Shown here: piece after piece, positions 34,232 through 52,242 of the stretch
How the letters are laid out: every line of letters starts with the position of its first letter
How positions within the stretch are numbered: position 1 is the first letter of the stretch
IMG/VR virus record: IMGVR_UViG_3300050120_000361
Coordinates: 144,539 to 208,538 of that record
Reading direction: 5' to 3' (one strand)
Length of the DNA stretch: 64,000 nucleotides
Source: a virus
Program-made: the position numbers and the translations under genes
The notes under the pieces: generated by a model
The model's database searches: none
Told to the model about the DNA's origin: nothing
Seen by the model: the letters and a program-made list of their open reading frames with translations, nothing else

Positions 34232-36052
34232 ATGAAACAGAACCTTAATACCGCTTTTTTGGGCCCAAACAGCTATCCTGCAGTGGTAGGCTCAATTTAC
34301 GACGCTCTTAACGAGGCCGTATGCGACACCACAGCAGGAAACGAATTGGTCAGAGAGGCCATTCAGAAAATGAATGAGTCCACTACCCCGGTATTGGACC
34401 TTAAGGATTTCACAACAAACGCCGAAAAGGTAGCACCGAACGACACCAAGCTAATGGACGTAATCGACTTCGCCCGCAAGCAGGTGAAGGGGGGAGACCT
34501 GAACTGCCTGATAAACATAGCCAAGGAGGAGCACATCCAGGAGCAGAGCCGCACCGGCATGCCAACCCCGGAGGCTACAATAAAGAACTGGGAAGAGATA
34601 ATGAACAAGCCATCGAGCGTAATCGAGGAGGGCATAAAGAACGGCCTGTTCAAGGGCCTTGACTCCAAGCTTTACATGGAGCTTGAGAACATAATCTCCG
34701 AAGACGGAAAGAACAAGTCGAAGAACAAGGTGGTAGCCCCGCAGGACCACCACGAAGGCAACGTGCTGAACGAGTCCGCCACGCTGCTGTCACCTACCGG
34801 CAATATAGCAATATACGCCCCAATTGGCGTTAGGATGGAGGACCCCAAAAACAACAGAATACTGATGCTTACTGAGAACGCCGTGCTCACGTACGACCGC
34901 GAGAATGAGACGTTCTTCTCCCTGAACGAGAGTGAGTACAAGGACCTTAACATCCCTGACCGCCACCGCAGGCTGATGACCGCCCTGCAGACTCTTCCGT
35001 TCGACGCCGAGAAGCAGGTGTTCTCGCTTAACGAGTCATGGGATTTCGGCCTGTCCCTCAACGACAACGGAGGAGTGGTACTTTCAAGGAACGGCAAGTC
35101 AACTGAGATGAAAAGCGAGGATGTTCCAAACTTCCTAATGGAGTCCATAGACATATACGCCGGAGAGAACAGCAACAAGAAATTCGACAGGGTGCGCTTC
35201 GCCGCGGATGCGGACAATTTCGTAATGCTAATGGAAAACCACGACAGGCTGCAGCGCCTTGACAAGCTCCGCACCATACGCAACCTCGAGGACGGCAAGT
35301 ACATCATGGTTGACACCCGCACCGAAATGGTCCCAGTGTTCATAACCTCCTCAGAGGGTCCGAAACTGTTCGAGTCGTACGAGGAGCTTACGCGCGAGGG
35401 CATGTCTGTGCTTAACGAGTCCGTTGAGGCGATATTCACGCCGCACCTTCAGCGAGAGCACGCGTTCTACAAGAACCAAAAGGAAATCATACGCACCCTG
35501 AACGAGTCGCAGCACGAGATAAACCACCTGATAAAGAAGACCACCAAGCTCCGCGACATGGCCGATGAGGACAGTCCGGCTATGGACCTCCTGAACGAGC
35601 AGGACGCCAAGCTGCGCGGCGGACTTGAAAAGAATATGAAGGCCCTTGACCGCGTGGTGAACATGGCCACCCCATACGGGATGTCGCTTAACGAGGCCGT
35701 GCAGTCAATAACCGTTACCGACTTTTCAGAGTACATTTCCACCACTCCGCTCACTCCCATAAAGGACGTGCTGACTGGGACAAAAATAGCGGAATTCGTT
35801 GCACGTCTGGGCAACACCGGAATGGTGCACGCGCTCGTGTCCGACGACATGAGCAACTACCTGCTGTGCTACCAGGACGCGAACACCGCGAATTGGGTAA
35901 TAGACCTTTGGACGCCAATAGACGGCTATTCAGAGGAGTTCCAACAGAACAACTTCGCCGGCAGGGAAGAGGCATTGGGCTACGTTGAGAACATAAGCGA
36001 AGGAGTCGCAGCGGCGCTCAAGTCCGAACAGGCCCTCGCCAAAGCGGCTTAG
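34232..36052 (+). CDS. unknown protein with many predicted prohead-protease sites
   Basis: 606 aa. The sequence L-N-E followed by S or A occurs at residues 26-28, 179-181, 231-233, 266-268, 394-396, 423-425 and 486-488, with related M-N-E-S (48), L-N-E-Q (454), L-M-E-S (302) and L-F-E-S (380). T4 prohead protease gp21 cuts after L/I-x-E before A, S or G, so this looks like a head internal or core protein that is chopped during maturation. The rest is mixed helix and strand with no known family. It follows the polymerase gene by 12 bases, although a replication role is not suggested by its sequence. Confidence 0.65.
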   Translation: MKQNLNTAFLGPNSYPAVVGSIYDALNEAVCDTTAGNELVREAIQKMNESTTPVLDLKDFTTNAEKVAPNDTKLMDVIDFARKQVKGGDLNCLINIAKEEHIQEQSRTGMPTPEATIKNWEEIMNKPSSVIEEGIKNGLFKGLDSKLYMELENIISEDGKNKSKNKVVAPQDHHEGNVLNESATLLSPTGNIAIYAPIGVRMEDPKNNRILMLTENAVLTYDRENETFFSLNESEYKDLNIPDRHRRLMTALQTLPFDAEKQVFSLNESWDFGLSLNDNGGVVLSRNGKSTEMKSEDVPNFLMESIDIYAGENSNKKFDRVRFAADADNFVMLMENHDRLQRLDKLRTIRNLEDGKYIMVDTRTEMVPVFITSSEGPKLFESYEELTREGMSVLNESVEAIFTPHLQREHAFYKNQKEIIRTLNESQHEINHLIKKTTKLRDMADEDSPAMDLLNEQDAKLRGGLEKNMKALDRVVNMATPYGMSLNEAVQSITVTDFSEYISTTPLTPIKDVLTGTKIAEFVARLGNTGMVHALVSDDMSNYLLCYQDANTANWVIDLWTPIDGYSEEFQQNNFAGREEALGYVENISEGVAAALKSEQALAKAA

Positions 36053-36100
36053 GATTTTACACAAGAGGCCTTAGGGTCCGATAACAGATGATGACCAGAG

Positions 36101-36466
36101 ATGCCCCCTAAACCCGCAAAATCCAAGTCAAAATACTACATACCACCAGAGGAATTCCATGCAGAGTACAGGCTCTCCCAGGAAAAGGGAGAGCCCACGC
36201 GGAAACTGCTTCTGATGTTCGAAAAGATCGCCAAGCGGTACTCTACCAAGTTCAAGTGCGTAAACAAGCTAGACACGGACAGCTGCGTAAACTACGCGCT
36301 TACGGAGGCCTGGCTGAAGTGGGACAAGTACGACGAGACGCGCTCGAAGAACATATTCTCATTCTTCACGGAAGTTATAAGCAACGACCTCGCGTACCAC
36401 CACAACAAGATTACCAAGTACAAGGACCATATAAGCATTGACGTGCTTTTCGCAAACCACCAGTAA
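36101..36466 (+). CDS. gp55-like late sigma factor
   Basis: 121 aa, shorter than T4 gp55 (185 aa). The helical core I-A-K-R-Y-S-T-K-F, then D-S-C-V-N-Y-A-L-T-E-A-W, W-D-K-Y-D-E-T-R-S-K-N-I-F-S-F-F-T and N-D-L-A-Y-H-H-N-K matches the sigma region 2 fold of gp55, including the promoter -10 binding helices. It lacks the gp55 C-terminal tail that contacts the clamp. In T4, gp55 directs host RNA polymerase to late promoters. Whether this short form does so, with or without the second sigma at 57532, is unknown. Confidence 0.7.
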   Translation: MPPKPAKSKSKYYIPPEEFHAEYRLSQEKGEPTRKLLLMFEKIAKRYSTKFKCVNKLDTDSCVNYALTEAWLKWDKYDETRSKNIFSFFTEVISNDLAYHHNKITKYKDHISIDVLFANHQ

Positions 36467-36478
36467 TACTGACACGCA

Positions 36479-37129
36479 ATGATGCTCAACCCGGCCACCG
36501 ACAAGTTTTTGTTGGAATTCTCGTCCGACTTCTTCCCGACCTCGCTAACGCAGAAGTACGACAACTACATGTTCCACATGAACGGTCCTGTCAAGTACCT
36601 GCAGGCGCACATCATGGAGACCATCCAGAGCGTGAACATACCCGGATGGAACGTGCAGACCACGGAGACTAAGGGGCTGAACAACCTACGCAACGTCCCT
36701 GGGGCCGGCATGGGGAACAGGCCTGGGCAGTTCCCATCCAATACGGTTAATAGAACCTTTGCGGGTTCGGCTCCGATAAACGAGATCGTGGACGGCAACA
36801 TTGTGAACATCACCTTCAGGAACTCCATACTCAATTGGATGTACCTGTGGGAATGCCTCAGGGGCTACTACGACAGGACGCGTTCGCTTAACGAGTTCAG
36901 GATAACAATGACTATAATGGACGCTGCCGAGATACCGCTGCTTCAGTTCATTTTCTCCGACTGCTTCGTGGCTGTGATGCCCGGTCTCGAGTTCTCCTTC
37001 GCGCAGTCCTTCCGCGAGGCCAAGACCATAGACGCCGGCTTCATCTTCAACAAGATTGACGTGAACTTCATGATACCCGGCTTCAAGCTGTCAAACGCCC
37101 AGTACCCAATCAACCAGCCGCAGCAATGA
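36479..37129 (+). CDS. probable tail-tube-like or baseplate protein
   Basis: 216 aa. The C-terminal half (R-S-L-N-E-F-R-I-T-M-T-I-M-D, F-S-F-A-Q-S-F-R-E-A-K-T-I-D-A-G-F) has the strand order and the conserved polar turns seen in tail tube-like and tube-initiator proteins. The N-terminal half is aromatic. It is translationally coupled to the next gene (ATGA overlap). I consider a tail-tube-derived baseplate protein the likeliest role. Confidence 0.5.
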   Translation: MMLNPATDKFLLEFSSDFFPTSLTQKYDNYMFHMNGPVKYLQAHIMETIQSVNIPGWNVQTTETKGLNNLRNVPGAGMGNRPGQFPSNTVNRTFAGSAPINEIVDGNIVNITFRNSILNWMYLWECLRGYYDRTRSLNEFRITMTIMDAAEIPLLQFIFSDCFVAVMPGLEFSFAQSFREAKTIDAGFIFNKIDVNFMIPGFKLSNAQYPINQPQQ

Positions 37130-37572
37130 CCAATCAGACGTACATGGACATTGAGAACATGTTCATCGATAACATTGAGGACGTTCCAATCATAGACATT
37201 GTCAGGTACTCTCCGGACATGCCAATGGACGCGCTGATGTACAGGTACTACGGGGGCAACCCGATAGACGCGAACGGAGTTGACCAGACAATGCAGTACC
37301 TGCCGCTAGTCCTAACCTTCAACAACAGGCCGGACATTTCAAGGATAAACTACGGGGACCTGATAAAGTTCCCGGACATTGCGGCTCTCATAGTCTCGAT
37401 ACTTACGCTGGACCTTGAGACCTCGCTTCCCGGCGTGGTGACCACGCAGCAGAACGCCGCGGTCACCCAAAACAGGACAAGCTCTGGAAACTCCACCACG
37501 GCCATGCCTAAGATAGGCGTCACGCTTCCGCAGGTTAACTACGACCAGACCACAGGCATAATAACATTCTAA
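37126..37572 (+). CDS. small baseplate protein, LysM-like (gp53-like)
   Basis: 148 aa. M-D-A-L-M-Y-R-Y-Y-G, then Y-L-P-L-V-L-T-F-N-N, then I-N-Y-G-D-L-I-K-F-P recalls the LysM-like end of T4 gp53 and similar baseplate wedge proteins, where a R-Y-Y-G and a final P-G-x-x-L-x-I-P are typical. The last 40 residues look disordered (Q, N, T, S). It starts inside the previous stop codon and precedes the hub gene by 6 bases. Confidence 0.5.
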   Translation: MTNQTYMDIENMFIDNIEDVPIIDIVRYSPDMPMDALMYRYYGGNPIDANGVDQTMQYLPLVLTFNNRPDISRINYGDLIKFPDIAALIVSILTLDLETSLPGVVTTQQNAAVTQNRTSSGNSTTAMPKIGVTLPQVNYDQTTGIITF

Positions 37573-37578
37573 CCGGAA

Positions 37579-38772
37579 ATGGCGATAATAGTAAAACCGA
37601 CCATAGCCGTTGGAAACATACAGATACAAGCGGACCCAAACGCCGCCGAGTCTGTGCAGAACATTCTCGACAATTGGGGCGCAAGCATGCCTGTTGTCAA
37701 GATAAATGATTATCCGCTCGCCGCCGGCGAGCTTTTATCGTTTAGGCTGGACGTCAAGTTCGGCACCATACCGTCCTTCGGCATGGAGGTGTACGACTCG
37801 AACTACACGGTGCGGAAGGCGCTCAATGACACCATAATAGATACGGGCGTTGTGTTCATTGGGTACAGGAACTGGTACATCAAATTCAACGCTCTTTTCA
37901 CGGTTTCGGTTTCTGACGCCGGGGACACCAACATAAACATTGACGGCATCGTGTGGGCGCCCGCGCTTCACGACAATTTCCAGGCGGGCTACACCAACAG
38001 GACCGTTCAGGACATACTCGCCGACATTTGCGGCAGAACCGGAACTGGCCTGTTTACGGTCAACGGCCCAAAGCTGTCGCAATCGCTGGATAACTGCCTT
38101 AATGCGAGCTGGAAGGGACTGAATTTCCTGAACTTCGTAGTCAACAAGTACACCAATTGCCTTTGGGCAATGGACCCAATGTACACGTTCCACGTGGTGG
38201 ATTGGGAGCAGCTCCAGAGCCAGCCTCTTGACCAGTACACTCTCGGCGAAAAGGGCGCTATTGTTCCGGCAACGGACATGGTGCTCACCACGCACCTCTG
38301 GCCGGACGACACGGACTCTGGAAAGCTGATGGTAAAGTGGTTCACGATAAACACCAATTTCGGCAAGGCTAACATAGACACGCCGCTTTCCATGGCCACG
38401 TACTTTGAGGGAGGGCAGAACGGAACGGACGAGGTAGACGAGGACACCACGGACCAGTTCGGCACATCGGCGGCGAAGGCCAACTCGTTCTACGGCTTCA
38501 AGGCGCAGCACCACCCGTTCCACAATGAAATGGCCGCCAAGCTGATAGCTGGTAAGAGCATAACCTGCGAGATGGAGAACATAATATACGAGATAACGCC
38601 GTTCTCTCAGGTGAATTTTGAGGCTTGGCTGCCGCAAAGGAACGACACACCTACGGTGATGGACACCGAGAACTCGGGGCGCAAGACCGTTATAGGCTAC
38701 GCGTTCCACTTCAACAGGAAAACCGACACTACGCTGTATCCGATAGTGCGCCAGACAATTGATTTGGTCTGA
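37579..38772 (+). CDS. baseplate hub protein (gp27 or gpD-like)
   Basis: 397 aa. The strand-rich start, the G-x-x-W-Y-I-K-F-N-A-L-F-T-V-S-V-S-D region, then V-Q-D-I-L-A-D-I-C-G-R-T-G-T-G-L-F and W-K-G-L-N-F-L-N-F-V-V-N-K-Y, match the usual order of phage tail hub proteins of the gp27/gpD type, where a helix beginning with T-x-x-[ED]-[IV]-L precedes a second barrel. It would form the central trimer under the tail tube. Context (tube-like and LysM-like genes just upstream) supports it. A cyan or lysozyme-bearing spike gene is not in the window. Confidence 0.5.
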   Translation: MAIIVKPTIAVGNIQIQADPNAAESVQNILDNWGASMPVVKINDYPLAAGELLSFRLDVKFGTIPSFGMEVYDSNYTVRKALNDTIIDTGVVFIGYRNWYIKFNALFTVSVSDAGDTNINIDGIVWAPALHDNFQAGYTNRTVQDILADICGRTGTGLFTVNGPKLSQSLDNCLNASWKGLNFLNFVVNKYTNCLWAMDPMYTFHVVDWEQLQSQPLDQYTLGEKGAIVPATDMVLTTHLWPDDTDSGKLMVKWFTINTNFGKANIDTPLSMATYFEGGQNGTDEVDEDTTDQFGTSAAKANSFYGFKAQHHPFHNEMAAKLIAGKSITCEMENIIYEITPFSQVNFEAWLPQRNDTPTVMDTENSGRKTVIGYAFHFNRKTDTTLYPIVRQTIDLV

Positions 38773-38831
38773 CGGGACAGGAAAACAACAATATACCGTA
38801 AGCGGTAAATATACTTAATAAGAATTTCAAC

Positions 38832-39977
38832 ATGGAACAGAACCTACTATTGGTAATTGAGGGCTATAATCAGGTAATCGCCTCTTTCAAGAACAGAACG
38901 GACGTGCTTAACGGGCTTGCTTTGGCTTGGACCGGCGGCAATGACCGAGCATTGCCCGAGAACACGCCAGTAGGAATTGGCGACGGGCTCGGAACCACCG
39001 GCTACTGCGTGTCAGCGTCAGAATGCCTGCTCAACGACGAGATATTCAAAATGTACCTTGAGTTCCGCAAGGCCAAGGCCAAGCTCATATCCATCGACAT
39101 CAAGGAACAGTACTACGGGTACTGCTACAACGGCTCGCAGAACAAGTGGCATACGGCCATACTCGTAGAGGAAAGCGGCATAAACCTGATTGTGGACGTA
39201 ACGTGCAGGCAGTTCGGCGACCAGTTCATAGACAAGGACGTTTGGGACTTCCCTTCATGGGAATTGGCGCTCCGCAGCCCCAACTGCAAACACGCCATAA
39301 GCGACAGGATTGACTATCCGGGCGGAATAGTGCCGATACACAAGGCCGCTTCAAGGGTTTCAGACCTCGACAGGATAGACCTGCTTGACGCCATGCACGA
39401 CATAACCAACATAGACTCTGATGACCGCCAGGTGCTTTCCGGGTTCCTTCTCGGCAAAATGGGCGTGCTTAACGCGCGCATGCTGGTTGGCAACATAACG
39501 GTTGAGGACTACCGGTACATAGACAACTTGGGCAAGCTGCTGCAGAAGATGCCCTTCGACACCATAAACGAGGGCTATTCGGTGCTTTCCTTCGAGACCA
39601 AGGCCGCCGCCAAGGCGTGGCTTAAGCTGTTCCTTGAGGGCCGCGGCAAGCTGCCGACCTACATTCTCGTTTCGCAGTCGGTTGAGGCCTCTTGCCAGCT
39701 GAACGGCTACGACGAGTGGGACGTTAACATCGCTTACAAGTCGGCCGCCAGCGCGAATAGGACCTATTTGGTGTTCCGCTTCGGCGAGCTCTACGGCATC
39801 AAAACGGCTTGGCTCAGGAACTCAAAAATACTCGTCCCTTTCGGCATACAGCTGCCTTTCAAGCCTGAAAACATAATGAACGGAGGCGCCGCCATAGACG
39901 GCAACAAGCGGGCGGATGGAACCCTCGACCGCGAGACGAACGCGATATTCGTGACACTGGAGAACAAGACTTATTAG
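38832..39977 (+). CDS. unknown protein with transglutaminase-like Cys-His-Asp pattern
   Basis: 381 aa. The first 130 residues carry G-Y-C59-V-S-A-S-E-C, then W-H107-T-A-I-L-V-E, then I-V-D122-V-T. That order and spacing resemble the catalytic triad of transglutaminase or papain-like peptidase folds. The remainder (about 150-381) is mixed and includes a D-T-I-N-E-G sequence that also fits the prohead-protease rule. It might be a virion-associated peptidase or cross-linking enzyme acting on a host or capsid protein; the pattern could also be chance. Its own short hairpin (TACCG/CGGTA) lies in the leader. Confidence 0.5.
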   Translation: MEQNLLLVIEGYNQVIASFKNRTDVLNGLALAWTGGNDRALPENTPVGIGDGLGTTGYCVSASECLLNDEIFKMYLEFRKAKAKLISIDIKEQYYGYCYNGSQNKWHTAILVEESGINLIVDVTCRQFGDQFIDKDVWDFPSWELALRSPNCKHAISDRIDYPGGIVPIHKAASRVSDLDRIDLLDAMHDITNIDSDDRQVLSGFLLGKMGVLNARMLVGNITVEDYRYIDNLGKLLQKMPFDTINEGYSVLSFETKAAAKAWLKLFLEGRGKLPTYILVSQSVEASCQLNGYDEWDVNIAYKSAASANRTYLVFRFGELYGIKTAWLRNSKILVPFGIQLPFKPENIMNGGAAIDGNKRADGTLDRETNAIFVTLENKTY

Positions 39978-39980
39978 GGC

Positions 39981-40472
39981 ATGGATAGGAGGATATTGCG
40001 AAGACTGTCCAATGTCCATAAGTCTAAACCACAGCAGAAGACAAGGGGCTTTGTGACAGGCGACTTCGCCAAATTCAATCCAAAGAAGTATGTCGGGCAA
40101 TTGCCAATAACCTACCGTTCAAGCTACGAGCTCGCTTTCATGTTCAAGATGGAAGCCAACAGCAATGTTAAGGCTTGGGCTGCTGAACAGGTGATAATAC
40201 CATACCTTCTAAAGGAAAAGCGGGGAAACGAATTCGTTGACGTCAGACACAACTACATAACGGACGCCACCGTTTGGCTGATTAACGATGAAAAGTACAT
40301 CTGCGAGATAAAGCCGCTGGCGTTCACGCCGCTCAACGAGTCGCAGCTGCGGAACAGCTACGTGCACTACAAGAACGGACAGAAATGGAAATACGCCATG
40401 CTTTGGTGCAAACAGAACGGCTACACCTTCAAGCTAATAACTGAAGAGACGCTGAAAACCAAAATATTCTAA
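39981..40472 (+). CDS. head completion nuclease (gp4-like)
   Basis: 163 aa (T4 gp4 is 150). The signature is intact: F-N-P-K-K-Y-V-G-Q, Y-R-S-S-Y-E50-L-A-F, a V-K-A-W-A-A-E-Q-V-I-I-P-Y strand, D95 in I-T-D95-A-T-V and E109-I-K111-P. E50, D95 and E109-x-K111 would form the restriction-type nuclease centre. T4 gp4 finishes DNA-filled heads before tail joining and is found at the head-tail connection. Starts 3 bases after the previous gene. Confidence 0.85.
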   Translation: MDRRILRRLSNVHKSKPQQKTRGFVTGDFAKFNPKKYVGQLPITYRSSYELAFMFKMEANSNVKAWAAEQVIIPYLLKEKRGNEFVDVRHNYITDATVWLINDEKYICEIKPLAFTPLNESQLRNSYVHYKNGQKWKYAMLWCKQNGYTFKLITEETLKTKIF

Positions 40473-40494
40473 CAACCACAACAATCATAATTAT

Positions 40495-41025
40495 ATGAAA
40501 ATAGCCAAAAAATCAGGAAATGTCGTACTGACCCACCTGACGCAGAATGAGGTTTACGGACTGCTTAAGTGCCAGATACCAATTCACCTTATATTCATGG
40601 ACCTTAACGGCACCTTCGTGCAGGAGAAGACCATGAGCCTTTCAGACAGGTTGTTCGATGGCGTTCAAAAGATACTCGTCAACGAAGAGGAGTGGGAGTA
40701 CAAGGCGCTTATCGCGGAAATAGGCCAGGTAATGCACTCGGGCCTGAGCCTCGGAGTGATGCTGACAATACAGGACTTCAAGGACCACGAACCGCTCATA
40801 TCCATTGTTGGCTCATTGAAGCAAGACGTGGTCAATTCCGCAGTGCGCATAGAGTACGGCAAGGAGGTGTTCTGCGTGACCAACAGGCCGTTCGCCAACG
40901 GAGACTCCGATAAACTTTTTTATTACGCGGGCAACGACAGCATACTCGCCTTTGTCGAGGAGGGGCCTGTGCTCATAACCGACAACGTGCACGTCACTTC
41001 CGTTCAGGACGTGCTGTGCGATTAG
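40495..41025 (+). CDS. small unknown protein
   Basis: 176 aa, alternating helices and strands; it resembles no family I know. Residues 20-60 contain I-P-I-H-L-I-F-M-D-L-N-G, and the C-terminal half has several aspartates. It is between the gp4-like nuclease and a fibre-like gene, so a structural or completion role is possible. No membrane segment or motif. Confidence 0.55.
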   Translation: MKIAKKSGNVVLTHLTQNEVYGLLKCQIPIHLIFMDLNGTFVQEKTMSLSDRLFDGVQKILVNEEEWEYKALIAEIGQVMHSGLSLGVMLTIQDFKDHEPLISIVGSLKQDVVNSAVRIEYGKEVFCVTNRPFANGDSDKLFYYAGNDSILAFVEEGPVLITDNVHVTSVQDVLCD

Positions 41026-41062
41026 TCAATTATTTTAAGGAAACAAACAAAAACATACGGAA

Positions 41063-41479
41063 ATGAACAAGAAGAACATCAGCGAGCTGGAGGTAATGGT
41101 CCAGCTGGGCATACCAACCGGCCCGACAAACCCGACAACCCCGAAGGCGAACCAGATAGACGGCGTGAACCGCGCCTACCTGTTCTACAACAAGACCCTG
41201 GGAGGTCTGCAGATTTGGAACGGCACGGCATGGGTTAGCTTCGCGGGAACCGTAACTTCGGGAAACACGGTGAAGGCCGTGAAGTCAACAACCGCTGCCG
41301 ACGGAACCGCAACGGCGTTCGCGTTCCCGGACAACATACTCGCGGGTACCGAGGAGATTTATGTCGCGGGCCTATTGAAGGACCGCACAACGGACTACGC
41401 GGTTGCCACCAACACAGTGACATTCACTGTGGCTCCGACAAACGGCCAAAAAGTGCTCGGGAGCTACCAGAAGGCGTAA
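41063..41479 (+). CDS. small fibre-like or decoration protein
   Basis: 138 aa. A Y-L-F-Y-N-K-T-L-G-G-L-Q-I-W-N-G-T-A-W-V element (about 35-55) is typical of phage tail fibre and decoration proteins, where L-x-x-Y-x-G-x-W-V closes a beta repeat. The second half (about 65-135) is a thr- and val-rich strand domain. It probably sits on a particle surface. No enzyme motif. Confidence 0.55.
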   Translation: MNKKNISELEVMVQLGIPTGPTNPTTPKANQIDGVNRAYLFYNKTLGGLQIWNGTAWVSFAGTVTSGNTVKAVKSTTAADGTATAFAFPDNILAGTEEIYVAGLLKDRTTDYAVATNTVTFTVAPTNGQKVLGSYQKA

Positions 41480-41495
41480 TCACAAAATATAGCTG

Positions 41496-42323: not shown

Positions 42324-42335
42324 CAAAGACAATTC

Positions 42336-42980: not shown

Positions 42981-42998
42981 CGCGCAGGATACGAAAGT

Positions 42999-43355: not shown

Positions 43356-43502
43356 ATGAAGAAAGTGCAGCTCTTCTTTTCCAGGCTTTTTCCAAAAATG
43401 ATACTCGGCAACAAGGTTGTGGCAACGATAGTCCACAACACCGGCATACGCTTTGGGCAGATGAAGGAAGAAGTTGACATTTTAACGAATACCGACATAT
43501 AA
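43356..43502 (+). CDS. 48-aa unknown peptide
   Basis: Too short to be picked up by length filters but well placed: ATG 3 bases after the previous stop, TAA 10 bases before the next start, codon use like the neighbours. Translation begins M-K-K-V-Q-L-F-F-S-R-L-F-P-K and ends T-N-T-D-I, with an amphipathic, partly hydrophobic middle. Function unknown. Confidence 0.45.
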   Translation: MKKVQLFFSRLFPKMILGNKVVATIVHNTGIRFGQMKEEVDILTNTDI

Positions 43503-43512
43503 TAGATAACAG

Positions 43513-44454
43513 ATGGCCAAGGGAAACAATATCGGAAAGCCGAGCATAGAGTACATGGAAAGACACCTGGTCGAAACGGCTTTGGTGTGTTCCCGTACGG
43601 TGTCCGAGCTGAAGACAGCCGGCATAGTGCAGAAAACCAAGTTCTTCGAGACCGCGAGCCATTACACGCTCGGGCTGACCAAGCTCTTTGAGGCCATAAC
43701 CGGTGTAAGGTTCGACGGAAAGTTCCAGTCTGACGTTCCTACAGTCAAGGACTTCAGGGGGAACCGATACGCTTACTTTGGAAAGGTGCTTACTATGCTT
43801 AACGAGCATGATGAGCTGCAGTCCGAGAGCATGCAGATGCTGAACGAGTCAATAGTCAACTTCGGAGAGAAAACCAACAGGTACGATTTCCAGGCCTTCA
43901 AGGATGAACTGGCGGACTGCATCAAGGAATTGGAGTCGGTTGACGACTTCGCTCGGCTCGACACGGTTCCGCAGGAGATAATGAAGATCAAGCTGCTTGC
44001 CCGCAAGCCGATGTACGTTTACGGGTTTGACGTTGTGAACAGCCCGGTCCTTCGCCAGGAGCTGAAGGAGAAGATGCGGATTGACATCGAACAGGCCTTT
44101 GCTATACTTTGGGATAGGACCAACAAACAGCTACTGTTCCCTTTCAAGTCAAGACTCATAGCGTACGACGTTGCGGGAAACAGGCTCGGAGACTTCAACG
44201 AGGTGAACGCCGACAGGGTAGCCGACGACTTCACAGGCGAAAAACTTCAGGTCAGGTCTGTAACCAAAATGGATCTCGCGAACTACAAGGACATCATAGC
44301 CCATGAGAACAACGGCAATTTCGTGACTCTTTGGACCAACGTGCCGATGCTCGGGTTCAAGTACACAGACAACCTCTACGGTGACGCAGCAAGGGCCGAG
44401 TGGCTCAAGAAGAACGGGGTGCTCAAGGGCGGCAACATGCTGGTTAAATCGTAA
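43513..44454 (+). CDS. unknown protein with protease-site-like sequences
   Basis: 313 aa, helical first half, mixed second half. It has an L-N-E-S site (110-112), L-N-E-H (96-98) and L-F-E-A (58-60), all close together between the N-terminal 120 residues and the rest, which fits prohead-protease processing near the N-terminus. Location upstream of the portal gene and downstream of head-completion genes is compatible with an internal head protein. No domain recognised. Confidence 0.6.
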   Translation: MAKGNNIGKPSIEYMERHLVETALVCSRTVSELKTAGIVQKTKFFETASHYTLGLTKLFEAITGVRFDGKFQSDVPTVKDFRGNRYAYFGKVLTMLNEHDELQSESMQMLNESIVNFGEKTNRYDFQAFKDELADCIKELESVDDFARLDTVPQEIMKIKLLARKPMYVYGFDVVNSPVLRQELKEKMRIDIEQAFAILWDRTNKQLLFPFKSRLIAYDVAGNRLGDFNEVNADRVADDFTGEKLQVRSVTKMDLANYKDIIAHENNGNFVTLWTNVPMLGFKYTDNLYGDAARAEWLKKNGVLKGGNMLVKS

Positions 44455-44471
44455 AATAATATAACAAATAA

Positions 44472-45107
44472 ATGAACAATAGACCAAACCTTATACCTAA
44501 TATTTTCGAAAGAGGATATAGAGGAGATGGTAAGTATTTGACAAGAAATGGTGCTAAAGATACCAAAGAATATAAGACTTGGTATGGAATGCTTGAGCGG
44601 TGTTATAGCGGAAATAAGCAAAAAAGTTCACCAACATATATAGGTTGTAAGGTATGCGATGAATGGCTTAATTTTCAGGTATTTGCTGAATGGTACAACA
44701 GTCAACCATATTCACACAAACAGGACATTAAATTCGACCTTGATAAGGATTTGCTTATTGATGGTAATAAAATATATTCACCAGAAACCTGTATTTTAAT
44801 ACCATCTATAATAAACATGCAATTTGCAAATATCGGTAAAGGTATTCATTTACCCGGAGCCAATTGGTTGCCTGACAGGAATAAATTTATGGCGCGTGGC
44901 CCAAGAATTGAAGATGGAAAACAGTCTACTCTTGGATATTTTTCCTTAGAAGAGGAAGCACACAAAGCCTACATAAATGCTAAAGAAAATTATATTCAAA
45001 AGCTTGCTGAATTATATTCCAATGTTCTTGATATTCGTATTTATCAAAAATTATCAAATTATAGTTTCAATTTAGATTTGTACAGCAAATCCAATTTTAT
45101 TAACTAA
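44472..45107 (+). CDS. AP2/HNH homing endonuclease-like protein
   Basis: 211 aa. Signature of the phage AP2/HNH group: Y-K-T-W-Y-G-M-L-E-R-C-Y, P-T-Y-I-G-C-K-V-C-D-E-W, L-I-D-G-N-K-I-Y-S-P-E-T-C, with a final AP2-like G-Y-F-S-L-E-E-E-A-H-K-A-Y. The gene is far richer in A and T than its neighbours and uses AAA, ATT, TTA codons, a sign of recent transfer. It lies exactly upstream of the portal gene. A stand-alone homing endonuclease that cuts copies lacking it is likely. A similar gene lies just after the capsid gene at 52347. Confidence 0.8.
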   Translation: MNNRPNLIPNIFERGYRGDGKYLTRNGAKDTKEYKTWYGMLERCYSGNKQKSSPTYIGCKVCDEWLNFQVFAEWYNSQPYSHKQDIKFDLDKDLLIDGNKIYSPETCILIPSIINMQFANIGKGIHLPGANWLPDRNKFMARGPRIEDGKQSTLGYFSLEEEAHKAYINAKENYIQKLAELYSNVLDIRIYQKLSNYSFNLDLYSKSNFIN

Positions 45108-45197
45108 TTTAGGAGGAACCAAACTATCAAACTCACCATTGGAGTAAGCCTCCTATCCACAAGAAACGTAGAGAAGGGCCTCAGTAAGAAGATACTG

Positions 45198-46838
45198 ATG
45201 GCCAACACCTCCGACAAGGTGAACACGCACAAGCTCGGCAAGGGCGTGCCTTCTGACCCTATATACTTCTCCAACTCCAGTAGGGCGCAGTACTTCAACA
45301 ACGACATACGCTACCGCAGCAATTACGGGTACTCCCCGCTCACATCTATAGACGGGCGTAACGCCCTTCTGCTCTTCGCGGAGAACACTGAGATAAAGAA
45401 GGCCGTGAAGGCCATATGCAACGAGCTCATAGTCGCGTCTTTGCGCGACAAGAAATACGCCCTGTACCCGGTGATAAATCTCACCAACGTACTTGAGGAA
45501 AAGCTAGATACCGCCAAGGCTATCCAGTCCTACCTTGACGAAATATTCTATCCTAAGCTTTACCAGATGGTAGGCTTCAAAAAGGATGGATTGATGGAGA
45601 TTTGCAAGGAGTTTTTGATAACTGGCAAATGGGCTGGTGAGATTGTTTACGACTCGCTCAAGAACCCCAAGGAGATTGTCAACATAGTGCCGATTGACCC
45701 ATCCACCCTGCAGAAGTTCAAGCAGGACAACTACGTGTACTACGTACAAAGGCCCATGGGCGACAGCGTGCGCGAGCGGATACTGCATGAGAATCAGGTG
45801 ATACTCGTGGAATGGAACAAGTTCGATTTCGGCTACATCTCATACGTTGACCAGCTGCGCAGGCCGTTCAATATAATGCGCTCCATGCAGACCGCCAAGA
45901 TACTCTGGTTTGCCGTTAAGTCTCAGGTCCGCATGCACATCAAATTGAACCTCGGAGACGTTTCGCGCCAGGACGCCATACAGAAGCTGAGCGTGGCCAA
46001 GAACGACTACACCAACACCTTTGACTTCAATGACGAGGACGGTACGGTTAAGTTCAACGGGGAGCCGAACTCTTCAGGCTATCAGGAGTTCTTCACAGCT
46101 GAGACCGCCGCCTCAGGCTCACCAGAGATTGAGGAGATAAACACCCAGGGCCCGGATTTGACAGAGGTCGACTCGCTCCAGTACTGGGAAAAATCCTACT
46201 GGAAAGAGACCGAGATACCATTCGACCGCATAGACCCGAACAGCTCCGAGGTATTCAACTTTGTGGACGTCACGAACATGCGCAAAATCGAGATAAACTT
46301 CAGCAAGTTCGTGACCGGCATACGCAAGATGCTTCAGGAGATAATTCTCAAGCCGATACTAATACAGCTGACTATCAAAGAAATTGAGATAGGCATAGAC
46401 TTGAACCTGCTCGACAGCATACTAATCGAGTGGGTGGCCTTCAATGAGTACGACAAGCTCGCCGAGACCGAGCTTCTGCAGAAGAAGGTCGAAATGGTCA
46501 CGGCTCTCGCGCAGTTCGGCGTTCAGACCGACGCTTCAGGCGTAGAGAGGAACTACCTGCCACTCAGCTGGCTTGTCGACAACTACCTGGACTTCACCCC
46601 TGAGCAGAAGGTTGCCATGGAGGTCGCGCGCAGGCAGGAGGCCATAGCGCTTGGCTTCACAGACAAGGACGGAAACCCAATACCTCACGGGGACGACGCG
46701 CCGGACGAGAGCGACGACGGCGGCGGCGGCGAAATGGACATGAACGAGGACCCTGACGATGACGGCCTGGCGGACGAGGACGAAGACGAGAGCGCCGAGG
46801 ACATAGCCGGCGTTGACGACGATGGATTTAACGCTTGA
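45198..46838 (+). CDS. portal protein (gp20-like)
   Basis: 546 aa (T4 gp20 is 524). The portal-type order is present: an R-N-A-L-L-L-F ... E-I-K-K-A-V helix, then G-F-K-K-D-G-L-M-E-I-C-K-E-F-L-I-T-G-K, the W-N-K-F-D-F-G, R-R-P-F-N-I-M segments and a long helical C-terminal crown. It would form the dodecameric DNA entry ring. The acidic D-D-D end is unusual. The frame stays open from 45108 for another 90 bases (with residues like T-I-G-V-S-L-L-S-T-R-N-V), but without an ATG; the original start may have been disturbed by the endonuclease insertion. Head order portal, core, protease, scaffold, capsid matches T4. Confidence 0.8.
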   Translation: MANTSDKVNTHKLGKGVPSDPIYFSNSSRAQYFNNDIRYRSNYGYSPLTSIDGRNALLLFAENTEIKKAVKAICNELIVASLRDKKYALYPVINLTNVLEEKLDTAKAIQSYLDEIFYPKLYQMVGFKKDGLMEICKEFLITGKWAGEIVYDSLKNPKEIVNIVPIDPSTLQKFKQDNYVYYVQRPMGDSVRERILHENQVILVEWNKFDFGYISYVDQLRRPFNIMRSMQTAKILWFAVKSQVRMHIKLNLGDVSRQDAIQKLSVAKNDYTNTFDFNDEDGTVKFNGEPNSSGYQEFFTAETAASGSPEIEEINTQGPDLTEVDSLQYWEKSYWKETEIPFDRIDPNSSEVFNFVDVTNMRKIEINFSKFVTGIRKMLQEIILKPILIQLTIKEIEIGIDLNLLDSILIEWVAFNEYDKLAETELLQKKVEMVTALAQFGVQTDASGVERNYLPLSWLVDNYLDFTPEQKVAMEVARRQEAIALGFTDKDGNPIPHGDDAPDESDDGGGGEMDMNEDPDDDGLADEDEDESAEDIAGVDDDGFNA

Positions 46839-47073
46839 TGATAACAACCTGAAAATGCTCGAATACCTTTGGTTCCTGCTCGTGGGCGTGCTGATAGGAG
46901 GGTGCGCCATAGGCTTCACGCTCGCCGTGCTTCACAAGGAGCTGTGGCAGTGGTGCTGCAGAAGGGCAGTAAGGATACTCAGGAGGCGGAACAGGAAAAT
47001 AGCCGACCTAACGCTCGCCAATAGGAAATTGGCGAAAGAAAACAACAAATTGAAAAAGAACCTCCCTATATAA
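46822..47073 (+). CDS. small membrane/core protein between portal and protease
   Basis: 83 aa starting inside the end of the portal gene. A single hydrophobic helix (about 12-34, W-F-L-L-V-G-V-L-I-G-G-C-A-I-G-F) is followed by a basic coiled-coil-like tail (R-R-A-V-R-I-L-R-R-R-N-R-K-I). The position matches that of T4 genes 67 and 68 (prohead core proteins), but the membrane helix is not a gp67 feature. It might anchor prohead assembly at the membrane, where T4 heads also start; inferred from position. Confidence 0.55.
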   Translation: MDLTLDDNNLKMLEYLWFLLVGVLIGGCAIGFTLAVLHKELWQWCCRRAVRILRRRNRKIADLTLANRKLAKENNKLKKNLPI

Positions 47074-47102
47074 ATACCCAATACAGGATAAAACAGAATA
47101 GT

Positions 47103-48791
47103 ATGTCAGCACAACCACAATCAAACATAGACCAGCTTCACGAGGCGGTAGAGGAACGCAATTTCCTGTACCTCGAAACTGCGGACAGCCCGCTTTCCAG
47201 GGTGGATAATGCAGACATACTTAAGAACATCATCGACCCCACCACGGGACAGCCCTATGAGGGCGGAATTGTGATGGAGGGCGAGTTCGCCAGTCTCGGC
47301 GTTCTCAACAACAATAACCGCATCTACACTGAAAAGGAGTACATTGAGCTCGTTGAGGTAATCAAGAAGAAGATACACTCCAAAAAGGGCGTTTACGGCG
47401 AGCTTGAGCACCCTAAGGGTTACGCTACCGACTACAACAATGTAAGCCATAAGATACTTGACATTTGGTACGACCCAATGAAGAAGAAAGTCTTCGGGGT
47501 GATACTGATACTCAAGACGCCAAAAGGCCTTATAGCCCAGGAGATTGTCAAATCCGGCGGCACGCTGGGCATTTCGGCCCGAGCCGGCGGCAAGGAGACC
47601 AAGAACCATGACGGAACCATTACGGCAGTAATCCGCATGATGGTAACTTTCGACATCGTATACCATCCAGGCTTCACGACTGCAGAGCAGGAGTATACGA
47701 CCCTTAACGAGAACCATGCAATTGACGCGAAGTCCAAGACATTCACCATATACGAGACAAACCTCGGCAAACTGGACGAGCTCTACGAGTCGTACATAGC
47801 CGAGGAGGACCGCAGCATGAACTTCATACAGTGGGTCGACCACAACAAGCTGTTCGAAAGCGCCGGGCCCCACATAGACACCCAACAGGAAATCGGTGAG
47901 CAGAAGCTGCAGACCGGTGAGACAAACAACCAGCAGCAGGTTGAGCAGCAGCTAAGCGACGCTGTTGACCAGCAACTGAACGAAAGCCAGGTGCGCCTGA
48001 ACGAGAGCCAGGGCAAGTTCTACGAGGAAATGCAGAACGCTCAGCTGAGCCTTGGACGCAAGATGCGTTCAACCGCTAAGCAGCAGAAGCTGAACGAGGC
48101 TCAGAAGATAAACGCGGCGAAGGCTGTAGGCAGGTACAAGAAGCAGGGAAACTCGCTGTACGACGGCTCCGCAGGCTTCGCGCAGCCGACCGGAGGCATA
48201 TCAGGAGTGGACACAATGTCGCAGTCTCAGGACAATCCTGACGAGGCCTACGACCCTTACGGCCTGGCCGAGGGGGATATGAGTGAGGATTTCGGTTCGG
48301 TAACGGACAATGACGGCCTGATGGAAACTGAGGGAGACGGCTACGGAACGCCTGACGAGGAGGACATGAAGGGCTTCATGGAAGAGCAGGACGACCTTTC
48401 CGAAAACGGAGAGGACGCAAGTCCGGACCCTGACATGCTCGGACTGCTGTACGAGGACAATGAGTATGGATTGGAGCCAGATTTCGAGTCCCTCATGCAG
48501 AACGGCGAGAACGGAGACAATATCGGATTGTATCAGGAGATACAGCAAAAGACCCAGGAACGACAGAAAATGTACGAGCGCCAGTTCGATACGGCCCAGC
48601 GCAAGAAGCTGGCCAAAGAGGGCAAGGCGCTTCCTGACGGCTCATTCCCAATAGTCAACAAGGAGGATTTGAAGAACGCCATCGTTACGCACGGGCTCGC
48701 AAAGAACAAGAGGCTCGCCAAGGCATGGATAATGTCCAGGGCGGCTGCGCTGGGTCAGGGCGGACTTTTGCCCAAGTCGTGGAAAGAATAA
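47103..48791 (+). CDS. prohead protease fused to a C-terminal core extension (gp21-like)
   Basis: 562 aa; T4 gp21 has 212. The protease domain (about 50-240) shows E-G-E-F-A, N-N-R-I-Y, then G-E-L-E-H103-P and G-I-S158-A-R, the catalytic His and Ser context of gp21. After it come L-F-E-S (250-252), L-N-E-S at 292-294 and 299-301, L-N-E-A at 330-332, so the linker would be cut by the enzyme itself. The acidic region follows, and the last 60 residues carry a F-P-I-V-N-K-E-D-L-K-N-A-I ... R-A-A-A-L-G motif seen in other phage head proteins. It is best read as a protease with a self-removed scaffold-like tail. Confidence 0.8.
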   Translation: MSAQPQSNIDQLHEAVEERNFLYLETADSPLSRVDNADILKNIIDPTTGQPYEGGIVMEGEFASLGVLNNNNRIYTEKEYIELVEVIKKKIHSKKGVYGELEHPKGYATDYNNVSHKILDIWYDPMKKKVFGVILILKTPKGLIAQEIVKSGGTLGISARAGGKETKNHDGTITAVIRMMVTFDIVYHPGFTTAEQEYTTLNENHAIDAKSKTFTIYETNLGKLDELYESYIAEEDRSMNFIQWVDHNKLFESAGPHIDTQQEIGEQKLQTGETNNQQQVEQQLSDAVDQQLNESQVRLNESQGKFYEEMQNAQLSLGRKMRSTAKQQKLNEAQKINAAKAVGRYKKQGNSLYDGSAGFAQPTGGISGVDTMSQSQDNPDEAYDPYGLAEGDMSEDFGSVTDNDGLMETEGDGYGTPDEEDMKGFMEEQDDLSENGEDASPDPDMLGLLYEDNEYGLEPDFESLMQNGENGDNIGLYQEIQQKTQERQKMYERQFDTAQRKKLAKEGKALPDGSFPIVNKEDLKNAIVTHGLAKNKRLAKAWIMSRAAALGQGGLLPKSWKE

Positions 48792-48875
48792 ATAGAACAG
48801 AAACCCCAGTAAAACGCCTCGCGAACGCGCGGCGGCAATCAACATAATTAACAAAATACTTTAAACGAAAATTTT

Positions 48876-50291
48876 ATGACCGGAATGGTAAACTATCTCC
48901 TTGGCAGCATCGACGCTACCGAAAGGGAGATGAGAGCGCAGGAGGCTGAAATTGATAATGACGACTTAGATATGGATAATCTCGATGAGTCAGAGCAATT
49001 CCCTCTTGACGACGACAACAAGAACTTATCACAGGACAGTGATGAGGACCTTCTGAATTACAACCCGCTTCTCGAAGACGATGAGGACTTAGACCTTGAT
49101 TTGGACGTTGACGCTGACGACCTCGGCATCGATGACGATGATTTGGGCCTTGAGGACGATGACCTCGGCTTGGACGGGGACGATGATTTGGACCTTGACG
49201 ATGACGGCTCGCTTGACATCGACATGGACGGCGACGACCTTGGCTTTGACGACCTGGACGAAGATGAGGGTTGGGACGACCTGGACCTTGGCATAGACGA
49301 GAACACGGACTTCTCTCAGTTGACTGAAGGCGATGACGTTGACGATGAGGACTTCGGCTTTGAGCAGGACCCTGCGGTCCCTAATGACAGTGACCTTGAT
49401 GATGACCAGCTCTTTGAGGCTGAGCAGCAGAAAGAGCACGACCAGCAGATGAAGCAGCAGCAGGCGCAGCAGCAAAAGCAGAAAAAGAACCTTCAGCAGA
49501 AGCACCAGCAGGAGCAGAAGGATTTGAAAGAGGCCCAGCAGAAGCAGCAGAAGCAAGCCCAGGAAAAGAAATGGCCGGCCGATAAGCAAAAGCAGTTGAA
49601 GCAGCAGCAGCAGCAGAAGCAGCAGGAGCTAAACCAGCAGCAAAAAGCCGAACAGCAGAAGCAGCAACAGAACCAGCAGAAAAAGCAGGAGCAGTTGAAG
49701 CAGCAGCAAGAAGCCGAAAAGGCCGAGCAAAAGCAAAAGCCCGAGGAGGCCAAGCAGCAGCAGCTTAAGCAGGCTCAGCAGCAGAAAAAGCAGCAGAAAG
49801 AGCAGCAGGAGCTTAAGCAGCAGCAGGCCAAGGAGCAGCAGGAGCAGAAAGCCCAGCAGGAAAAGCAAAAGCAGAACCTTCAGCAAAAGCACCAAAAGGA
49901 GCAGCAGGAGCTTAAGCAGCAGCAGCAAGCCCAGCAAAAGAAGGAACAGCAAAAACCGGCCGCGCAGCAGAAGCAGCAGCAACTGAAGCAACAGCAGCAG
50001 AAGCAGCAGCAGGAGCTTAAGCAGAAGCAGGAAGCCGAGCAGAAGAAGCAGCAGCAAAACCAGCAGAAGAAGCAGCAACAGCTGAAAGAAGCTCAGGACG
50101 CCCAGCAGAAGGAGCAGAAAACCCAGCAGGAAGCCGAAACTAAGAAGCAGGACACTGAGAAGCAGAAGGCCCAAAAGGCCCAGGACAAACAGAAACAGGA
50201 GCAGCTTAAGCAGCAACAGCAAAAACAGCAGGAAAAGCAGCAGCAGCTCAATGAGTCTGTTCGCGAGAAGTACCTGAATGGCCTGATTTAG
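48876..50291 (+). CDS. scaffold/prohead core protein, extreme low complexity (gp22 position)
   Basis: 471 aa. The first 170 residues contain acidic repeats (D-D-L-G-L-D-D-D type), and about 180-455 are almost purely Q, K, E, with short A, L, N units (Q-Q-K-Q-Q). The end has L-N-E-S (458-460) 12 residues before the stop, a predicted cut site. Its place between protease and capsid equals T4 gene 22 (major scaffold), also a charged coiled-coil protein. A single-polarity acid block followed by a polyglutamine-lysine coiled coil is unusual. It would be removed by proteolysis before DNA packaging. Confidence 0.75.
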   Translation: MTGMVNYLLGSIDATEREMRAQEAEIDNDDLDMDNLDESEQFPLDDDNKNLSQDSDEDLLNYNPLLEDDEDLDLDLDVDADDLGIDDDDLGLEDDDLGLDGDDDLDLDDDGSLDIDMDGDDLGFDDLDEDEGWDDLDLGIDENTDFSQLTEGDDVDDEDFGFEQDPAVPNDSDLDDDQLFEAEQQKEHDQQMKQQQAQQQKQKKNLQQKHQQEQKDLKEAQQKQQKQAQEKKWPADKQKQLKQQQQQKQQELNQQQKAEQQKQQQNQQKKQEQLKQQQEAEKAEQKQKPEEAKQQQLKQAQQQKKQQKEQQELKQQQAKEQQEQKAQQEKQKQNLQQKHQKEQQELKQQQQAQQKKEQQKPAAQQKQQQLKQQQQKQQQELKQKQEAEQKKQQQNQQKKQQQLKEAQDAQQKEQKTQQEAETKKQDTEKQKAQKAQDKQKQEQLKQQQQKQQEKQQQLNESVREKYLNGLI

Positions 50292-50367
50292 GTTCGGACC
50301 GCAGCTGACCCCAGCAACGGAAAAGACTTAACAGAAATTATCAACCAAAAATACAAAATCTAACGAT

Positions 50368-52242
50368 ATGTTTAATACTAAAGTTACCAACGAGCCTATC
50401 TACAAACACACTCAGTTGGACCCACGCTTAGTGGAGAAAATCACACCGCTCATGGAGAGCGCGTTCGGCGCTGACCTGAACAACTACGAGGACGGCAAGG
50501 ACCCCCGCAGAAAGGTTATCCGCGACGAGAAGATCAAATTCCTTTCAGAGCAGTACGCAAACCGCGTGCGTATAGCAAACGTGATGGGCGTTCACCCATT
50601 GAATGAAGACGCGAACATCTTCGGCGCCATCCCTAACATGAACAAATTGTTCGAAAGCGTTGACAGCCCGGGAAGCATCATCGGTATGGGCGAGGTTCGC
50701 AACGCGGACAACGGAAACCAATACAATGGCGGTTACTGGAACCCTGCTTACAAGGCTGGTTCAGGCGACATCCCGTCATACGTGTTCGGTCTTCAGGCCC
50801 ACATCGCGATGTACTGTATAGGTTTCGACCTGCTGCCTACCATCTCGGTTGACACGCCTAAGGTTATGGTGTCATTCGTTGATACCGTTTACGGTGGCGG
50901 TACTTTTGATGACGCTGAGAACATGCCTTCTTTCATCGAGATTTCGAACTCCATATTCACTTCGGCCCTCATCGACACCACAGCCAAATTGAAACGCGCC
51001 ACCTCTGTGGTTACTTTCCGCGCCGCCGCTGGCGCTGGCGCTTTGGCGATGCAGTGTCTGTTCATGCTGAAAAGCACCGTTAAGCCTGCCATCACTGTAC
51101 AGGTTATATCTACCGGTACTTTGGACGGCTCGAACGTTTACACCGCTGACAACGCAAACTCGGTTGCCACCATCATCAGCACTATCAATGCCGCCGCCGC
51201 CGGTGTCGCTAAGTTCCAATACCTTAACCCATCTGACGGCACTACGGTTGTTCCGGTTTCATTGACCGCCGCGTCTACCGTTGTTGGTTATGCGTCTGCA
51301 ACTCGTACTAACATCGCTGAAGCTGTTTCAAACAACAACAGCCTTGGCGGCATGTCACGTGCTCAGCAGGAAAAAGGCCCGGTTAACAAGTTGAACGTTA
51401 TCGCCATGGACAAGCAATTGGAAATGGTTGGTATCGAAATCGAGGCCGACACCTCCAACATCCAGATCAAGGATATGGCGGCAATGGGCATCAACGTTAT
51501 CGCGCGTCTCTACAACGGTGTTCAAAACGCCTTGGTTCAAACCCTTGACGAGGTTATCCTTACCCACCTTTACCGTATGGGCGTGCAGCACATGTACAAC
51601 ACTTACCTGGCTAATGGAACGAACTACTCACTGTACATCGGAGCGCCTTCAAACGCTAACATCGCATTCAGCGCTGTTAACAGCGGCAACTTCGTCTACA
51701 ACGACATGCTCGGCGTTGACCAGAGAACTGCCATGGGCAATATCGTTAACTCGATACAGTCTTCGGGCTATGAGAACCAGATGACGCACAACGACCGCCT
51801 ATTGGCTCGTATCCTGTTGGTTGCTGAGTTCGTTGGCCAGAACAACCGTATCGCTCCGCCGGATTGGTTGGTGCTTTCGGGCGGTCTTGCCGCTGCTATC
51901 AAGAAGCACAGCAAGTACATCCAGTCACCTGTCGCCAACACGTTGAGCTCGGCCCCAGAGCTTCACTACTCGGGCACGTTGTTTGAGACCATGAGCGTTT
52001 ACAAGACGCCGCGTATCGACTTCAATGACCCGCGTATCCTGATGGGCCGCCGCGGCAATGACACCGACCCTGGTTCTAAGTTCCTGGCGTATGACTTGGC
52101 CGCGAGCCGTCAGACCCTGAACCCGGACACCATGGCTGAGAAAATCAGAGTGTGGTCACGTTTCGCCATCGCGGACATCGGCTTCTACCCTGAACTGAAT
52201 TATGCGACCGTGGTAGTTCAAAATGACTACAATTGGGCATAA
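50368..52242 (+). CDS. major capsid protein (gp23-like)
   Basis: 624 aa (T4 gp23 is 521). Assigned from position right after scaffold, from HK97-type order of elements and from strong host-like codon choice (ATC, CGT, TTG rather than ATA, AGG), as expected for the most abundant protein. The N-terminal region looks like a cleavable propeptide: L-M-E-S at 28-30, L-N-E-D at 78-80, L-F-E-S at 93-95. T4 gp23 is cut after residue 65. A serine-, alanine- and threonine-rich segment at about 215-325 may be an inserted surface domain. A strong terminator follows. Confidence 0.85.
   Translation: MFNTKVTNEPIYKHTQLDPRLVEKITPLMESAFGADLNNYEDGKDPRRKVIRDEKIKFLSEQYANRVRIANVMGVHPLNEDANIFGAIPNMNKLFESVDSPGSIIGMGEVRNADNGNQYNGGYWNPAYKAGSGDIPSYVFGLQAHIAMYCIGFDLLPTISVDTPKVMVSFVDTVYGGGTFDDAENMPSFIEISNSIFTSALIDTTAKLKRATSVVTFRAAAGAGALAMQCLFMLKSTVKPAITVQVISTGTLDGSNVYTADNANSVATIISTINAAAAGVAKFQYLNPSDGTTVVPVSLTAASTVVGYASATRTNIAEAVSNNNSLGGMSRAQQEKGPVNKLNVIAMDKQLEMVGIEIEADTSNIQIKDMAAMGINVIARLYNGVQNALVQTLDEVILTHLYRMGVQHMYNTYLANGTNYSLYIGAPSNANIAFSAVNSGNFVYNDMLGVDQRTAMGNIVNSIQSSGYENQMTHNDRLLARILLVAEFVGQNNRIAPPDWLVLSGGLAAAIKKHSKYIQSPVANTLSSAPELHYSGTLFETMSVYKTPRIDFNDPRILMGRRGNDTDPGSKFLAYDLAASRQTLNPDTMAEKIRVWSRFAIADIGFYPELNYATVVVQNDYNWA

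Follow-up and report, generated by a model that had tools for sequence, protein, structure and literature searches.

A conserved family of predicted multi-site substrates of the prohead maturation protease in jumbo phages

Introduction

In phage T4 the prohead protease gp21 cleaves after L/I-x-E (PMC9026906), and gp22, gp67 and gp68 are cut by it into small fragments, most of which exit the head (PMC9026906; PMC9958956). Multiple cutting after Glu is also described for head proteins of phiKZ and SPN3US, such as SPN3US gp53 and gp54, whose precursors carry several sites each, with a short motif covering the third to the first residue before the bond (P3 to P1) and Ser being favoured directly behind it, at P1′ (PMC10052503). 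The present study deals with a 606-amino-acid (aa) protein encoded at 34232..36052 (coordinates written with two dots denote plus-strand features) of a 64-kb window, by which we mean the whole stretch of 64,000 nucleotides that was analysed (positions 144,539 to 208,538 of the IMG/VR virus record IMGVR_UViG_3300050120_000361). This window is the final part of the 208,538-base record, which may be incomplete. On the basis of motif density and orthologues, the 606-aa protein is predicted to be a multi-site substrate of the head protease.

The likeness to the described systems is in each case a partial one. In T4, [LI]xE motifs are densest in gp22 and gp68, which undergo multi-fragment cutting by an S77 protease (PMC9026906; PMC9958956). 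The 606-aa protein, however, has no detectable sequence relation to gp22, gp67 or gp68 and is predicted to combine a beta domain with a coiled coil; its gene, unlike the T4 core genes, has the DNA polymerase and late sigma factor genes as neighbours, not the gene 21 counterpart, and the phage has a separate Q/K-rich scaffold. In the phiKZ and SPN3US head proteins the propeptide alone is cut, at A-x-E, and a large mature protein stays, whereas the sites in the 606-aa protein span nearly the whole chain. Two protease-scaffold fusions of the same lineage as the window, BPT24_140 and ORF-300 of the Tenacibaculum phages pT24 and PTm1, carry 20 and 17 [LIV]xE[SAN] motifs, respectively, along one chain, but they include the protease, while a protease domain is absent from the 606-aa protein and two separate genes encode the protease and scaffold of the window. 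The same gene position as that of the 606-aa protein is taken by BPT24_169 of pT24, gp111 of PAU, ORF-242 of PTm1 and gene 197 of the Chryseobacterium phage MA9V-2, with homology being indicated by hhalign for PAU and by Foldseek for pT24 and PTm1. BPT24_169 and ORF-242 differ from the 606-aa protein by showing 10-13% identity in structural alignments and by having I or V instead of L at P3.

Results

LNE occurs eight times in the 606-aa protein, seven times before S or A (26, 179, 231, 266, 394, 423 and 486, counted by the first motif residue, so that LNES179 stands for the bond LNE181|S182, i.e., after Glu) and once as LNEQ at 454. All non-overlapping open reading frames (ORFs) of this phage, with 66,249 aa in total, contain 17 LNE[SA], of which twelve belong to the 606-aa protein (7), the protease (3), the scaffold (1) and a 313-aa protein (1). 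The ORFs at 9214, 17198 and 39981 and two proteins from elsewhere in the record, one of them 3,040 aa long, account for the remaining five. Shuffles that preserve composition gave an expectation of 2.3 for the genome and of 0.07 for the 606-aa protein. A concentration of L-N-E before S or A had been the starting point of the first-pass annotation, and each of its counts was reproduced, as was the presence of LMES28, LNED78 and LFES94 in the N-terminal part of the capsid protein. The proteome-wide comparison with composition that it called for rules out that the motif is equally frequent in other genes, as the 606-aa protein has 11.6 LNE[SA] per 1000 aa and the protease 5.3, compared to 0.08 in the remainder. 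Proteome-wide, none of the control motifs [SA]ExL, LxD[SA], LxK[SA] and LxQ[SA] was enriched. A wider pattern, LxE[SAN], is present eleven times in the 606-aa protein, alongside one MNES, and the protein ranks first for this pattern among the 237 ORFs of the phage. The Leu and Ser codons vary among the LNE[SA] copies, so the enrichment acts at the protein level and a DNA repeat as origin of the motif is excluded.

A protease that could recognize such sites is encoded at 47103..48791. This 562-aa protein belongs to Peptidase S77, the family of T4 gp21 (Pfam PF03420, 42.9 bits with a cut-off of 27; PHROG 207, head maturation protease, E 5e-35), and has an extended C-terminus with LNES292, LNES299 and LNEA330. 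The S77 family is marked by E-H-P and I-S-x-R motifs around a conserved His and Ser. The corresponding GELEHP (H103) and GISAR (S158), with the two putative catalytic residues, are invariant in four relatives. That this protease cleaves after (L/I)-x-E is inferred from the conservation of the motifs and from the capsid N-terminus of the Sphingomonas phage PAU, the nearest isolate with experimental data. The major capsid protein of the window (50368..52242; PHROG 28442) aligns with PAU gp156 at 32-34% identity. The mature PAU capsid protein was found by N-terminal sequencing to comprise 520 of 585 residues with 56.2 kDa (PMC5646251). A cut at LME64|N would leave 521 residues and 56.1 kDa, one residue off the reported length. 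In the alignment with PAU and other relatives, the position of this site matches, apart from a few gap columns, that of LFE96|S97 in the window capsid (50647..50658), the predicted capsid maturation cut, so that S97 is the probable mature N-terminus with 528 aa remaining. As the PAU N-terminus aligns with LFES and relatives keep LFES, it is unlikely that LNED78 marks the final cut of the capsid protein. Three relatives have LFES at this site, whereas pT24 has ILES and PTm1 INES, for which reason LNE as a strict code was rejected. L-x-E|S/A/N describes the code better, with x being free, N, F, M and Y being preferred and LNE[SA] being the commonest spelling. The T4-like nature of the code proposed in the first-pass annotation is consequently retained, while L-N-E as the code itself is not, since N at P2 is a mere preference and the capsid is likely cut at LFE|S.

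A direct search of viral contigs and phages with the 606-aa protein alone found nothing, and a two-sequence alignment used as query reached its relatives. The close relatives are G001 (L012/L037) and the four IMG/VR contigs L034, L035/L039, L036/L038 and L117, all of which show the same order of the gene cluster. Their orthologues are 461-485 aa long, share 27-41% identity, lack the C-terminal ~115 aa and contain 7-12 [LIV]xE[SAN] each, the uniform motif used for all cross-genome rankings, compared to 1.9-2.6 expected (p<=0.0024). In every lineage examined the gene is positioned between the DNA polymerase and the late sigma factor. In the window these are a split DNA polymerase (29404..34219; N part 29404-30936, C part 32948-34219) upstream and a T4 gp55-like late sigma factor (36101..36466; PHROG 234) downstream. 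The two polymerase halves are separated by two ORFs of 287 and 325 aa, an arrangement shared with the relatives, pT24 and PTm1.

The proteins in this slot are all enriched for the motif (p 0.0002-0.009), MA9V-2 being the weakest case. PAU gp111, flanked by gp110 (DNA polymerase) and gp112 (homologue of the late sigma factor), contains seven LxE[SAN], and a profile comparison of the 606 family with gp111 (hhalign) yielded a probability of 85.5% and an E of 6e-6. In pT24 the slot holds BPT24_169, a protein of 936 aa with 22 motifs (4.3-4.5 expected), and a second gene, BPT24_170, with nine (1.9 expected). PTm1 ORF-242 has 15 motifs within 442 aa (2.5 expected). Gene 197 of MA9V-2, with four (0.9 expected), is probably the counterpart of the 606-aa protein, an assignment made by position alone. 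A Foldseek search with the model of the 606-aa protein returned A0A5S9HXP5 of PTm1 (E 5e-14), equated with ORF-242 by its length of 442 aa and by the phage, and A0A1B4XWW4 of pT24 (E 2e-9), equated with BPT24_169 by name and length, as well as five other uncharacterised phage proteins, all matches having 10-13% identity. Hits in BFVD included A0A8S5TFF8, A0A8S5QFA5, A0A6J5SVY8, A0A6J5PV39 and A0A8D9C8S8. BPT24_169 is annotated as 'DNA ligase 1' (LC168164.1 144057-146867); position, Foldseek and a weak BLAST match identify it as a 606-family homologue, and the ligase label is probably wrong. Among six proteomes the slot proteins rank 2/237 (the 606-aa protein), 4/210, 7/294, 2/293, 2/309 and 8/262 for [LIV]xE[SAN]; their combined p of 6e-7 assumes independent lineages, which these lineages are not.

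The residue at P3 is mostly L in the window, G001 and PAU and mostly I or V in pT24 and PTm1. With sites pooled within genomes and uncorrected for the tree, this shift has an odds ratio of 14 in the slot protein (p 1e-7) and of 19 in protease, scaffold and capsid leader taken together (p 5e-12), compared to a slight 1.3 in the rest of the proteomes. A drift shared with the protease is expected of a substrate, but not of a helix-cap or binding motif. As a control, the same statistic was applied to 259 ORFs of T4, where the top two ranks went to gp22, with 9 motifs observed and 1.45 expected, and to gp68, and gp23 was sixth; gp67 was not scored, being absent from the ORFs named in this ranking.

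In an AlphaFold model, the 606-aa protein starts with helices, which extend to residue ~107. Residues 113-183 are modelled with low confidence and are followed by a beta/alpha domain (190-380) and a coiled coil (383-482). Prediction is best for the beta domain, with predicted local distance difference test (pLDDT) values of 80-92. At the end of the first predicted helix LNE28|A (34307..34318) is unconserved. MNE49|S50 (34370..34381) is [LM]NES in 5/5 close orthologues, its counterpart in PAU gp111 probably being LNES50 (by eye, outside the stretch aligned by hhalign). LNE181|S182 (34766..34777), in a predicted disordered linker before the beta domain, is [LI]NE[SN] in 5/5 relatives and is the sole one of the seven LNE[SA] retained in all five. 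Five sites, LTE215|N, LNE233|S, LNE268|S, LME304|S and LME335|N (34868..35239), fall inside the one predicted beta/alpha domain. Four of five relatives keep LTEN213, LMES302 and LMEN333, three keep LNES266, and one has LNES231 exactly, an LNE being present nearby in others. Around the predicted coiled coil follow LFE381|S, LNE396|S, LNE425|S and LNE488|A (35366..35698), of which LFES379 is kept in 3/5 relatives and those at 394, 423 and 486 in 0/5 each. Nine of the twelve motif bonds adjoin predicted coil, compared to 17 of 45 other Glu (p 0.024). Cutting at all of them would yield pieces of 28, 21, 132, 34, 18, 35, 36, 31, 46, 15, 29, 63 and 118 aa. The last one, a C-terminal extension of ~118 aa behind LNE488|A (35696-36052), is absent from all relatives and had no database match.

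A test for a capsid-targeting sequence of the type of T4 IPI-IPIII, for which an N-terminal targeting peptide of ~10-20 residues with the protease motif as its end is expected, failed, as the N-terminus reads MKQNLNTAFLGP and the first motif is located at 26 and unconserved. Homology to T4 gp22, gp67 or gp68 was not found in Pfam, PHROGs, PDB sequences or the Foldseek libraries, and a PDB fold search with the model gave nothing credible. PHROG 17481 'minor tail protein' (E 0.003) was rejected as a chance match, as were the Pfam matches (coiled coil, FTCD_C), all of them under the cut-off.

Further predicted substrates are encoded in the window. The predicted scaffold (471 aa, 48876..50291) has an acidic N-terminal half and a Q/K-rich C-terminal half, which are separated by a conserved LFE[AS]E; its LNE[SA] at 458 belongs to a conserved LNES[VI]R near the C-terminus. 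In the 313-aa protein (43513..44454) LNE112|S113 closes an N-terminal part that is predicted to be helical, and LNES110-113 is invariant among five sequences in one alignment and five relatives in another, at 26-37% identity. A structure search with this protein gave no match. The pattern suggests that it is likely an internal head protein with a long N-terminal propeptide. The 213-aa protein (59603..60244) has LFE112|S (LFES110) before a conserved domain, and two relatives carry a short leader ending with LNE|S at the corresponding place, which makes it a candidate capsid-targeted protein. In most other genes the motif matches are not conserved among relatives.

Several observations were made beside these substrates. 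About 17 small PAU proteins start with MK(T/S)(L/I)xxL(Y/F)E(A/S/N/D), for example those at 11131-11592, 18074-18385 and 18393-18815 of L010, and about seven of them continue with KLNE(A/S) or a near variant. This N-terminal tag with its one or two predicted cut sites resembles the T4 capsid-targeting sequence and may mark packaged internal proteins. A 1044-aa protein of MA9V-2 (OR513085.1 187770-190904) contains 16 [LIV]xE[SAN] (4.2 expected), many of them with LNE, and is a further candidate multi-site substrate. A 396-aa protein of PTm1 (AP019524.1 65267-66457) contains ten (1.6 expected) and is third in its proteome. Two related ORFs of the window (44472-45107 and 52347-53291), adjoining the portal and capsid genes, both resemble one ORF elsewhere in L034 and, judged by eye, look like mobile homing-endonuclease genes.

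Discussion

The 606-aa protein appears to be a prohead-core component that is chopped up during maturation, a reading to which we assign a probability of roughly 70%. Its location, cleavage and fate are inferred here from the observed motif density, the conservation in orthologues, the shared P3 shift, the protease family and the gene position. In this jumbo phage of the T4 superfamily, the protein would be packed into the prohead together with the scaffold and the S77 protease, which would cut it at several L-x-E|S/A/N bonds, most of them located where a secondary-structure element ends. The resulting peptides would mostly be shorter than 65 residues and most of them would exit the head, making room for the DNA, although one or two of the larger pieces, 50-181 and the window-specific 489-606, may stay. 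That the protein is cut many times had already been suggested in the first-pass annotation, and this part is supported by the S77 protease, the motif density, the orthologue conservation, the P3 drift and the ranking of gp22 in T4. The behaviour had also been taken as not described, which does not hold, as gp22, gp67 and gp68 are each cut more than once by T4 gp21 (PMC9026906; PMC9958956) and SPN3US and phiKZ have propeptides with several cuts (PMC10052503; PMC5694885). The 606-aa protein is a new family with a known kind of behaviour.

Several points weigh against a core protein that is chopped up. The exact sites turn over, with 26, 394, 423 and 486 being unconserved as S/A sites, the counterpart in MA9V-2 has few sites, and the mean pLDDT of the model is a modest 61. 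The gene is not part of the block that encodes portal, protease, scaffold and capsid. In the 606-aa protein the reversed motif [SAN]Ex[LIV] is likewise high (9 observed, 2.3 expected), so that part of the motif excess is compositional or structural; the reversed motif is also enriched in the G001 orthologue. Conserved matches are also present in proteins that are unlikely to be cut, namely LHEN196 of the portal and LNES118 of a gp4-like protein, so the motif alone is insufficient for cleavage. Neither cleavage data nor virion mass spectrometry was retrieved in the literature search for this phage or its orthologues; the search yielded no virion mass spectrometry paper on the PAU, PTm1, pT24 and MA9V phages and only an SDS (sodium dodecyl sulfate) gel for MA9V-1.

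Among the alternatives, limited processing survives best. According to this idea only 49|50 and/or 181|182 are cut, and the folded beta domain, comparable to T4 Alt or the SPN3US ejection proteins, is packaged as a stable internal protein and may be injected. These two sites, universal in the close orthologues, lie on either side of the helical N-terminal part, the model is best in the beta domain, and the portal and gp4-like matches illustrate that not every motif has to be used. However, LTEN213, LMES302 and LMEN333 are located within this domain and are nevertheless retained in four of five relatives, and the motifs are spread along the whole chain in the PTm1 and pT24 proteins with their 15 and 22 copies. 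It therefore appears unlikely that the protein is processed at one or two sites only.

A true head polyprotein, from which the protease frees several stable, functional internal proteins or peptides, including a C-terminal passenger (489-606), was the idea originally put forward for this protein. It fits with LNE488|A directly preceding an extension that all relatives lack, and the mature T4 head does retain some fragments of its core proteins (PMC9026906). Yet most of the pieces would have 15-63 aa, five sites lie in one predicted domain, the cut positions turn over among relatives, unlike domain boundaries, and the C-terminal piece has no detectable relative. Viral polyproteins are characterized by positionally conserved cuts between stable domains, a pattern that the 606-aa protein does not show. 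Small pieces, cuts inside one domain and turnover of sites fit better with destruction and clearance, and the polyprotein is accordingly considered improbable. An equally long shot is its extended form, in which an unrecognised head-core family, linked to DNA polymerase and late sigma factor in jumbo phages mostly of Bacteroidota hosts, would serve as a polyprotein source of defined peptides (or, here, of the 118-aa passenger) that are retained in the mature head and injected. That the protein is no protease substrate at all, with the motif reflecting helix-cap composition or binding and the protein working with the adjacent DNA polymerase or late sigma factor, would agree with its position in every lineage examined and with the reversed motif in the window and G001 proteins, but is very improbable in view of the L to I/V shift at P3 common to protease, scaffold and capsid leader, the mostly flat control motifs, the reversed motif not being clearly enriched in PAU, pT24 and PTm1, and a signature which is the same as that of T4 gp22.

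Read as a prohead-core component that is cut up during maturation, the 606-aa protein gives a likely role to a family without useful annotation whose position is conserved across several jumbo-phage lineages. A motif drift that a protein shares with the protease, scaffold and capsid leader of its phage offers a sequence-only route to head-maturation substrates. Little is known about scaffold and core proteins in giant phages, and the cut sites predicted here are testable in PAU, PTm1 and pT24.

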